A DNA stretch of 64,000 nt from Promethearchaeota archaeon (GTDB lineage Archaea > Asgardarchaeota > Lokiarchaeia > Sigynarchaeales > SOKP01), in NCBI GenBank assembly GCA_013375495.1, contig JABXKC010000007.1:1-64000 (forward strand), given 5' to 3'. This document shows positions 22,559 through 40,356 of this stretch, piece after piece (position 1 is the stretch's first letter; every line of letters begins with the position of its first letter). The notes beneath the pieces were generated by a model. That model was given only the letters and a program-made list of their open reading frames with translations, was not told the origin of the DNA and made no database searches. The position numbers and the translations under genes are program-made.

Positions 22559-22582
22559 GGCGGGATTACCGAGTCTGGTCAA

Positions 22583-22620
22583 AGGTCTTATTATGGTTTA
22601 GAAGGGTCAAGACCGATTAT
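22583..22620 (+). other. Candidate D-arm intron of tRNA-Leu, 38 nt, near position 21/22
   Basis: The central helix of a bulge-helix-bulge is GGTC (22577-22580) with GATT (22615-22618), two Watson-Crick and two G-U pairs. Three-nucleotide bulges are AAA (22581-22583) and ATA (22619-22621). An inner six-pair helix GGTCTT/AAGACC (22584-22589 with 22609-22614) abuts the central helix. On the outer side only the D-stem pairs, so the motif is relaxed. A repeated AGGT (22583-22586, 22621-22624) means the exact cut is ambiguous by a few bases, but the spliced sequence is the same. Confidence 0.8.
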
Positions 22621-22667
22621 AGGTGCTGGACTTAAGATCCAGTGGCAAAGGCCTTCGGGAGTTCGAA

Positions 22668-22696
22668 ATTGTTAAGGATTTTCCTAATATCGAAAT
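22668..22696 (+). other. Candidate T-loop intron of tRNA-Leu, 29 nt, position 59/60
   Basis: Central helix TTCG (22662-22665) with CGAA (22691-22694), four Watson-Crick pairs, stacked directly on the T-stem GGGAG/CTCCC. Bulges are AAA (22666-22668) and ATT (22695-22697). Cutting after the second base of each bulge restores the loop TTCGAAT. The inner part can pair as TGTTA/TAATA (22670-22674 with 22685-22689, one wobble). An eight-base direct repeat TCGAAATT flanks it (22663-22670, 22690-22697). Confidence 0.85.
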
Positions 22697-22827
22697 TCTC
22701 CCTCCCGCCACATTCTTTTTTTAATCGATACTGATTTCTAGTAAATATAATAATGTGAAAGAATAAAATTAATATTTTCATGATTTCTAATTAAATATTA
22801 ATTCACTATTAACTAAAAGAGATTGAA

Positions 22828-24132
22828 ATGAAATTAACCGAAATAGTTGGTTTGGAAGAAAAGCACGCCCGACTCCTAGAAAAAGCGGGTATTAAAGAAG
22901 CAGAAGATCTTCTTTCTTTAAGTTACTATCAGATTAAACAATTAGCAAGAAGCATTGGTGTGACAGTTAGAGCACTTGATACATGGCAAGAACACGCAGA
23001 TTTAATGAGAATCCAAGGCGTTAGTCCTGAATTAGCAAACGCAATAAACCTTATAGGGATCGATTCTGTTAAGGAGTTCGCCTATCGAAAAGCGAAAACA
23101 ACAATTGAGAAGTTAAAGGAACTAAAAAAAGAAAATCCTAAAGTCCTTACTAAAGTTCCGAGCTTAAAAGATATTGAAGATTGGATAGATCAATCGAAAA
23201 TCCTTGCAGAAGTACCAAAAAAAGGGGAAAAAGTAAAAAAAAAGCCCACACCAAAGACAAAACCCGCACCAAAGGGAGGCTCGAGTCCAGATATACCAAT
23301 TACGCCCAATTATAAACCATTTGAACCGTTTGAAAAAGATTACGGTGAATTTGGTTCTGACTATTGGAATAATAAATGGGTTACCGCACCAATCATCTAT
23401 ACTGGACGAGCTTTGAGGGGAGAATCGTATAGTAAACAAATCGATGTTGATGTGAAAGCGTTTATAAAAAGAAATGATGCGATATTATGGCATGTATTAA
23501 CTCAATTAGAATTAAGGAAGGATACACCAAATGATACGGCTTTAGCAATCCAGAACTTCGTATGCAATTTTCTAAAATATAAATACGACGATATTGCATC
23601 AGAATGTCCTGAATTTTGGCTATTTCCCTTCGAAGCAATTCAATCAGAAATCGGTGATTGTGAAGATGGAGCCATCTTAATTGCAGGCCTGTTAATCAAT
23701 GCTGGTGTTCCTTCATGGCGAGTTAAAGTGTGCGCAGCTCAAGTAATGGCTGATCCCGTTTTTGCACCATCGGATACGGAATTGGGTGGGCATGCTTACT
23801 GTATCTATTTGGCAGATCGTCCAGAATCAGAACGAAAATTAGAGTGGGTAATATTAGATTGGTGTTATTTACAGGACCCAGAAGTGCCAATTAAAGATAA
23901 ACCTTTAGCACGAAACGGAGGAACAGAAGGGGCTTATAGGGACATATGGTTTACTTTTAATGATGAACAATCTTACGCACAAAGTAGTTTTGAAGTTAAG
24001 GAAGGCCGTATAAGTAAAAATAGAACAACACAAAAAGATGAAGTATTAGCTCCTTTGGAAGTCATTTTAAGGAGTCTAGCAACCGAAACAATAGATAAAA
24101 TTTTCAGGAATCTAAATATTGACATAGAATAA
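22828..24132 (+). CDS. DUF4332 helix-hairpin-helix domain fused to a transglutaminase-like domain
   Basis: A 434-residue protein. Residues 1-130 are helix-hairpin-helix-like DUF4332 repeats (LTEIVGLEEKHARLLEKAGI; LMRIQGVSPELANAINLIGI) that in other proteins bind nucleic acid or partners. A Lys/Pro-rich linker follows at about 131-155. Residues about 190-370 form a transglutaminase/cysteine-protease-like domain with nucleophile Cys in IGDCEDGAILIAGLL, His in LGGHAYCIYL and Asp in VILDWCYL. The Cys-His-Asp triad is complete, so the domain may be an active peptidase, amidase or transferase. There is no signal peptide. Function of the fusion is unknown. Its start ATG follows an AGAGATTGAA sequence that is a weak Shine-Dalgarno site. 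Confidence 0.8.
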   Translation: MKLTEIVGLEEKHARLLEKAGIKEAEDLLSLSYYQIKQLARSIGVTVRALDTWQEHADLMRIQGVSPELANAINLIGIDSVKEFAYRKAKTTIEKLKELKKENPKVLTKVPSLKDIEDWIDQSKILAEVPKKGEKVKKKPTPKTKPAPKGGSSPDIPITPNYKPFEPFEKDYGEFGSDYWNNKWVTAPIIYTGRALRGESYSKQIDVDVKAFIKRNDAILWHVLTQLELRKDTPNDTALAIQNFVCNFLKYKYDDIASECPEFWLFPFEAIQSEIGDCEDGAILIAGLLINAGVPSWRVKVCAAQVMADPVFAPSDTELGGHAYCIYLADRPESERKLEWVILDWCYLQDPEVPIKDKPLARNGGTEGAYRDIWFTFNDEQSYAQSSFEVKEGRISKNRTTQKDEVLAPLEVILRSLATETIDKIFRNLNIDIE

Positions 24133-39814: not shown

Positions 39815-39981
39815 AACAAATTACATCTTGGGGTTCATACTATATTTTAAAATGAATATAAATTTGCAGTAAAAATATTCATTTCCATCAGAAACTAGTA
39901 GTTATCATATATTTTTTAAATTAAATTCTCTTTATTTGTTATATCTATTCATACTTTTATATTTTTAAAAATCTCAATAAA

Positions 39982-40356
39982 ATGATTGAAACACCAAAAA
40001 TTGACCATATTACTAGAGAATTGGATAAGTTAGAATTAGTGAACGGGATAATTGGGATTGCAATAGTAAATCGAAATGGTTTAACTATTATTTCTAGATT
40101 ACCGAGAGACATTGACAATCGCAAATTTGGTGCAATGGCAGCGACTATGTTTGAAGCAATGGAAACGGCGACAACCACATTAAAAGATGATGTCCTAAAC
40201 TTAACAGTAGAATTTGATGATTATCAATTAATTGTTTATGTTATAAACGCTGAAATTATTTTTGTATCTCTGTTAGAGGTGAATATTGACTTGGGGATTG
40301 TTCTTATTGAGATTGAAGAATGTAAAAAAATCATCCAAAAACTACTAGAGGTGTAA
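39982..40356 (+). CDS. Roadblock/LC7-domain protein
   Basis: A 124-residue Roadblock/LC7 domain. The pattern is a first helix (ITRELDKLELVNGIIGIAIVN), strands with RNGLTIISRLP, a long helix (DNRKFGAMAATMFEAMETATT) and the strands NLTVEFDDYQLIVYVIN and EIIFVSLLE, then a C-terminal helix. Such single-domain proteins regulate small GTPases or longin partners and are numerous in Asgard archaea. It is directly upstream of an E1-like gene whose ribosome site overlaps its last codons, so the two are translationally linked. The link between the two functions is unknown. Confidence 0.85.
   Translation: MIETPKIDHITRELDKLELVNGIIGIAIVNRNGLTIISRLPRDIDNRKFGAMAATMFEAMETATTTLKDDVLNLTVEFDDYQLIVYVINAEIIFVSLLEVNIDLGIVLIEIEECKKIIQKLLEV

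Follow-up and report, generated by a model that had tools for sequence, protein, structure and literature searches.

The 64,000-nt stretch of lokiarchaeal DNA analysed here (hereafter the window) harbors, on its plus strand at positions 22559-22710, a tRNA-Leu(UAA) gene with two interruptions: 38 nt are inserted in its D arm (22583-22620) and 29 nt in its T loop (22668-22696). Exon 1 (22559..22582) comprises the 5' strand of the acceptor stem (22559-22565) and the 5' part of the D arm, ending in GGTCAA, and the D-arm insertion follows tRNA position 21, by our count in standard numbering. Exon 2 (22621..22667) carries the 3' strand of the D stem, the anticodon arm with TAA at 22633-22635 within a perfect stem, the variable arm, and the 5' strand of the T stem followed by TTCGAA; the second insertion lies at position 59/60, also by our count. 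Exon 3 (22697..22710) provides the end of the T loop, the 3' strands of the T and acceptor stems, and the discriminator. The acceptor strands GGCGGGA and TCCCGCC form seven pairs and are followed by the discriminator A at 22710. Seven consecutive T (22716..22722, plus strand) seen in the sequence are a probable transcription terminator, and T runs are also present 3' of close orthologs (e.g. L001-L005).

Identification of the tRNA-Leu(UAA) gene

Removal of both insertions leaves 85 nt, discriminator counted, and restores a complete canonical tRNA, as is characteristic of bulge-helix-bulge (BHB) tRNA introns. The seven-pair acceptor stem, the TAA anticodon in a perfect stem and the 85-nt length had all been read from the sequence in an earlier note, and each was recovered at the positions given above. 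The gene is hidden from automatic tools: in the raw window, no tRNA was reported at the locus by ARAGORN or by Rfam at the gathering score, and relaxing Rfam to E <= 10 still gave no tRNA match at 22559-22710. ARAGORN detected a tRNA, namely tRNA-Leu(taa), once both insertions were out, and returned nothing when a single one was out. The T-loop junction is unique, while the D-arm junction can be drawn in five equivalent registers (starting at 22583..22587) that give one and the same mature RNA; by our reading, only 22583-22620 sets both cuts between the second and third bases of a 3-nt bulge.

The catalytic core of group I and group II introns spans hundreds of nucleotides; with inserts of only 38 and 29 nt, and no such Rfam match in the window at E <= 10, self-splicing introns were rejected. 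No Rfam family, box C/D included, matched within the gene. Elsewhere in the window, a CRISPR-repeat match on the minus strand (39969-39992) was dismissed as weak (E 5.6), with no repeat array beside it.

Conservation among lokiarchaeal orthologs

Asgard archaea are the archaeal group nearest to eukaryotes, and Lokiarchaea belong to this group. The best named relatives of the gene downstream (22828-24132, DUF4332) come from Lokiarchaeota / Promethearchaeota, and the alignment of 19 proteins of this downstream gene gave access to 37 loci from named lokiarchaeal genomes. A tRNA-Leu(UAA) was present in 23 of these loci; the other 14, some with short flanks, gave no tRNA-Leu(UAA) match. All 23 genes carry an insertion in the D region and exceed the mature length there by 28-96 nt. 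A T-loop insertion occurs in seven (L002, L003, L009, L023, L025, L030 and L033) and a variable-arm insertion in six others (L014, L016, L018, L019, L021 and L035), ten genes having neither. Applied to the 37 raw loci, ARAGORN reported one gene only, with the wrong anticodon (L032). The window contig may be a metagenome record, and the insertions could then be an assembly artefact of that one contig; but the D-arm insert recurs in 23 lokiarchaeal contigs of separately binned genomes, and the T-loop insert in seven of those, which leaves the artefact a negligible probability.

Exon bases are identical to those of the window at 84 of 84 positions in L001-L005 and L037, exon 1 included, while D-arm introns are 84-89% identical, T-loop introns 83-86% where present, and 100-base flanks from 92% down to 54%. 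Exons thus remain unchanged while introns and flanks vary, which argues for strong selection on the exons. In L009, 83 of 84 exon bases, 89% of the D-arm intron and 77% of the T-loop intron are identical to the window, against 70% and 33% in the flanks. In such more distant relatives, the D-arm intron is, judging from these alignments, more conserved than its own flanks. The closest relative, L001 (91% identity in the downstream protein), lacks the T-loop insertion precisely at the predicted junction (GGGAGTTCGAATCTCCC), and the insertion is exactly absent also from L004, L005 and L037. The T-loop insert is therefore not part of the product. On the protein tree, the presence of the T-loop intron requires six changes, a number that includes the frame-shifted L025 row, whose placement is meaningless, and that is matched or undercut by 141 of 500 shuffles; the tree shows the patchiness of this intron rather than a number of gains.

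A gene with two insertions could also be a decayed copy, the work being done by an intact tRNA-Leu(UAA) elsewhere. This is very unlikely, since the exons are fully identical across species that differ in as much as 46% of the flanks (L005), and since G001, the genome of the nearest relative, shows a single tRNA-Leu(UAA) within the candidates scored, itself with a D-arm insert. In G001, at least 28 tRNA matches were obtained at E <= 10 with 150 of 268 candidates scored; 26 of the 28 (L171-L196) were inspected by eye, of which about eight look uninterrupted and one is a Leu(UAA). The anticodon-arm pattern described below likewise matched once in this genome, so that the second, intact gene that the earlier note had named as a possible refutation was not found in G001 within this sample. 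The G001 ortholog of the tRNA-Leu(UAA) gene scores 24.1 bits with Rfam, under the cut-off. Two candidate additional copies were discarded: a "Leu(taa)" called by ARAGORN at L177 is by eye a tRNA-Ala(GGC) with a variable-arm insert, and a further hit of the pattern in G011 is due to chance and lies outside any tRNA.

By eye, most tRNA candidates of G001 have inserts, and many of these are located outside 37/38, for instance in Ala(GGC), Arg(TCG), Thr(TGT) and Met(CAT), and several of these genes are mis-called or missed by ARAGORN.

Probable splicing motifs at the two junctions

The BHB motif is described as a 4-bp central helix between two 3-nt bulges that hold the splice sites (PMC4090602). 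To score it, exon ends were set from the mature tRNA and not from pairing, and the pairing of each exon end with the end of the following intron was then evaluated in the BHB register. The analysis covered 57 distinct D-arm and 29 distinct T-loop introns, window included, after 10 D-arm and 3 T-loop misfit rows had been left out; the rows counted are related, and the counts below are hence not independent.

At the T loop, exon strand TTCG (22662..22665, plus strand) is followed by the bulge AA/A, the slash marking the cut, and pairs with intron strand CGAA (22691..22694), itself followed by AT/T; a 4-bp helix thus lies between the bulges AAA and ATT. Four pairs were found in the predicted register in 23 of the 29 introns, and in at most three when the register was slid by -4 to +4. 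Position 57 is a G opposite C in 15 introns, an A opposite T in six, and otherwise in eight. L009 and L025 display a compensatory change, with intron TGAA opposite exon TTCA, and in L009 the sole exon change, G57 to A, is matched by a C to T change in its intron partner. Folding strongly predicts the helix (pair probability 0.90-0.99), with stable flanking helices, and in the minimum-energy fold it can be read as five pairs here, TTCGA with TCGAA.

At the D arm, exon strand GGTC (22577..22580, plus strand) would pair with intron strand GATT (22615..22618), which is followed by the bulge AT/A, again giving four pairs between two 3-nt bulges (AAA and ATA), here on the evidence of covariation. 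Four pairs occur in 45 of the 57 introns in the predicted register. Most slid registers give 0-1; offset -4 gives 21, because many introns have GACC just upstream of GATT. Exon GGAC is mostly accompanied by intron GTYY and exon GGTC by GAYY, with four pairs in four of the seven GGAC rows. Overall, four pairs are missing from the expected register in 12 of 57 D-arm introns, among which L157 was parsed at the wrong exon end and L108 and L109 seem shifted by one, and in 6 of 29 T-loop introns.

Six unpaired bases on the 5' strand stand between the D-arm helix and the D stem, without direct stacking of one on the other, and the outer helix of the D-arm motif is interrupted. The pair probability of the D-arm helix is about 0.005 in the whole precursor and about 0.015 in the D arm alone; it is not the minimum-energy state, and a fold constrained to the BHB lies 3 kcal/mol above the free fold. 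Because folding does not favour this helix, we would describe the D-arm motif, in our own terms, as a relaxed BHB. Within the intron, GGTCTT (22584..22589, plus strand) is complementary to AAGACC (22609..22614) and might form a helix of low predicted probability, and the GACC of the latter can alternatively pair with exon GGTC. In both window introns, the predicted cuts lie between the second and third bases of the 3-nt bulges (AA/A and AT/A in the D arm, AA/A and AT/T in the T loop). The arrangement of bulge, helix and bulge proposed in the earlier note for both junctions fits, in relaxed form at the D arm, and the central helices covary across Asgard introns.

These pairings also bear on whether the insertions might be retained, which would make the tRNA larger in its D arm and its T loop. 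The T-loop insert does fold as a stable extended helix, as a retained extension might; but it is precisely absent from close relatives, exon-intron pairing covaries, and a T loop of 36 nt is incompatible with the established structure of tRNA, whose elbow it would break. Retention is accordingly highly improbable, and excision of both inserts is the reading that we pursue below.

A recurrent GGGTC motif in the D-arm intron

The D-arm intron contains the motif GGGTC (22604..22608, plus strand), which is common to much of Asgard: it is found in 46 of the 57 distinct D-arm introns, for 1.4 expected from single-base shuffles, and is missing from the remaining 11. It spans lineages that differ in intron length and lies immediately upstream of GACC or of the central helix's intron strand. 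The intron of a tRNA-Met gene in G001 (L257, G001:C167:2274-2287) and G002 (L256, G002:C225:4644-4657) has the same GGGTC..GAC.GATT stretch as tRNA-Leu(UAA) and also shares the next ten bases, GTGCTGGACT; the local score of this similarity is 27, the best of 2000 shuffles reaching 24. The shared stretch occurs in two of the 12 lokiarchaeal genomes; a reversed control pattern gave six chance matches in the same 12 genomes. Perhaps, to go by this resemblance, an intron moved between tRNA genes.

GGGTC may serve splicing, may be a mark of introns spreading from one tRNA gene to another, or may have another role. One reading is that the D-arm intron is kept for a second role, as a small RNA, an EndA recognition element or a D-loop mimic, which would add to its excision as an intron rather than replace it and would explain GGGTC. 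The excess of the motif over shuffles, the stretch held in common with the tRNA-Met intron, and the contrast between the D-arm intron and its flanks in L009 are all in line with such a role; yet kinship alone preserves sequence, 11 introns do without GGGTC, the motif is adjacent to the one for splicing and might be there for splicing alone, and no Rfam family matches within the introns. We consider a second role possible, though the odds are against it.

Survey of tRNA-Leu(UAA) genes across the phylum

The phylum was searched with an anticodon-arm pattern that requires an uninterrupted GGACTTAARATCC; canonical-intron genes are under-sampled because of this requirement. The pattern was present in 107 of 227 Asgard genomes, the other 120 giving no match. 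Two of the places that it matched were checked separately and are chance matches. From 117 distinct parsed matches, 93 genes were retained, window included, after setting aside 22 matches scoring under 9, some of them due to chance and others genuine genes with a poor parse (such as L068, L083, L090, L094 and L133), and two tRNAs of bacterial type by eye (L072 and L102). An insertion of some kind was found in 91 of the 93 genes, the exceptions being L165 and L166. D-region inserts occur in 80, V/T-region inserts in 53, and both in 42, some of the V/T inserts in these last two counts lying at 37/38.

By eye, two D-region introns are present in L012, L032, L123, L124 and L125. L124 (G114:C50, positions 181 onward) has four introns, of 27, 62, 30 and 31 nt. 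The D region holds two of them, and the variable arm and the T loop one each. ARAGORN sees this tRNA only after all four removals, any one left in being sufficient to hide it. Three introns per gene is given as the archaeal maximum in PMC8450103, and in PMC4033280 for Thermoproteales; L124 has one more than the maximum that we found published (PMC8450103).

Five genes (L080, L081, L082, L084 and L085) carry an insertion of about 50 nt that resembles a canonical 37/38 intron and have no D-region insert. Two bins each contain two similar tRNA-Leu(UAA) genes, L090 and L096 in G080, and L068 and L092 in G043.

Splicing enzymes in related genomes

PF01974, the family of EndA, was detected in all 12 lokiarchaeal genomes, 11 of which encode two such proteins while G010 shows only the beta-like one. 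By alignment, the alpha subunit (about 200 aa, in 11 of 12 genomes) has the active-site Tyr, His and Lys, and the beta subunit is without the His; at the sequence level, these relatives thus have two different subunits with Tyr-His-Lys in alpha only. With the Aeropyrum pernix alpha 3p1z_B, the lokiarchaeal alpha gives an alignment (1.4e-33) that spans residues 22-200 of 200 and runs through the Lys-Pro-Arg loop, which is present in 11 of 11 lokiarchaeal alphas (L038-L048). Twenty further Asgard alphas, which we picked from the listed matches (L229-L248), all have a Lys-Pro-(Lys/Arg/Gln) loop, 18 of them as Lys-Pro-Lys and one each as Lys-Pro-Arg and Lys-Pro-Gln, so that no alpha without the loop was seen among the 31 aligned. 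These data agree with a link between loop and introns, although they offer no contrast, every sampled alpha having the loop. The insert-free L165 and L166 belong to G187 and G213, and the alphas of G189, G207 and G212, listed nearby, have it. Across the phylum, PF01974 is present in 222 of 227 genomes, with two proteins in 175, one in 46 and three in one (hand count). The ligase RtcB was found in 11 of the 12 lokiarchaeal genomes.

According to PMC6379350, only (alpha-beta)2 and epsilon2 EndAs remove relaxed BHB introns efficiently, and the loop Lys is needed for broad specificity. The earlier note had argued that introns at these positions need a broad-specificity endonuclease, and the relatives do appear to carry one, a two-subunit EndA of the Aeropyrum type with its loop.

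Discussion

The clean tRNA obtained after removal, the identity of the exons, the lack of the T-loop insert in L001, the covariation of the helices, and the presence of EndA and RtcB in relatives together lead us to regard 22559-22710 as very probably a functional tRNA-Leu(UAA) gene with two BHB introns that would be cut by EndA and their exons joined by RtcB. The transcript would fold into two BHB-type motifs in which the last bases of an exon pair with the last bases of the intron after it, TTCG with CGAA in the T loop and GGTC with GATT in the D arm; a two-subunit EndA with a Lys-Pro-Arg loop would cut between the second and third bases of every 3-nt bulge, and the three exons would be ligated by RtcB to give a class II tRNA of 85 nt. 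We infer transcription, cleavage, ligation and the order of the two excisions, and presume that EndA and RtcB, as found in the relatives, are encoded in the window's own genome too. With comparable confidence, and jointly with this reading, the D-arm intron is very likely old and generally kept in Lokiarchaeia and much of the phylum, while the T-loop intron comes and goes.

The earlier note had also deemed two such introns in one Asgard-like tRNA unusual. Its description of this Asgard tRNA-Leu(UAA) as interrupted by two non-canonical BHB introns holds, and relatives have an endonuclease of the broad type; the supposed rarity does not hold, given a D-arm intron in 23 of 23 lokiarchaeal orthologs, inserts in 91 of 93 Asgard genes and in both regions of 42, the interruption by eye of most G001 tRNA candidates, and published cases in other Asgard lineages (PMC11291895). 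The intron pair is ordinary for its lineage, and well supported.

Several known systems resemble this one. In Atabeyarchaeia and Freyarchaeia, 92-95% of tRNA genes were reported in 2024 to have introns, often non-canonical, with more than half having several (PMC11291895); non-canonical multiple tRNA introns are therefore already known in the phylum. The available part of that source covers these two lineages of the same phylum and not Lokiarchaeia, this tRNA or EndA. Thermoproteales and other crenarchaea similarly display BHB or relaxed BHB introns at many positions and an (alpha-beta)2 EndA with a special loop, as described in PMC4033280 and PMC8450103. They have up to three introns per gene, whereas the Asgard genes belong to another phylum, stably keep a D-arm intron and reach four introns in L124. 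The tRNA-Leu(UAA) of Caldiarchaeum subterraneum, the same isoacceptor, has several introns, and the introns of that genome are also found in D, V and T arms (PMC3293823), a likeness drawn from the description given there. The lokiarchaeal alpha is alignable with the (alpha-beta)2 EndA of A. pernix (PDB 3p1z, 3ajv), both having a loop with Lys-Pro-Arg. Because Asgard alphas carry it, the "Crenarchaea-specific" loop is not specific to Crenarchaeota. The literature searched, with few subscription papers among it, contained no report of four-intron tRNA genes, of lokiarchaeal tRNA introns, of GGGTC in D-arm introns or of the Asgard EndA loop.

Since ARAGORN misses such genes and Rfam misses or barely sees them, lokiarchaeal tRNA sets are easily under-annotated. 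With the introns described here, one syntenic locus offers a natural series of presences and absences in which the gain and loss of tRNA introns can be studied, and the occurrence of the loop in all 31 aligned Asgard alphas bears on the origin of the eukaryotic splicing endonuclease. A bolder and rather improbable proposal would make the D-arm intron ancestral to Asgard, with a function beyond splicing through GGGTC, and a loop-bearing, broad-specificity EndA ancestral too, eukaryotic tRNA splicing having arisen from a permissive enzyme. If this were true, the lineage that gave rise to eukaryotic tRNA splicing would have carried as many as four introns in a tRNA, and human TSEN would owe its loop to inheritance, not to convergence.
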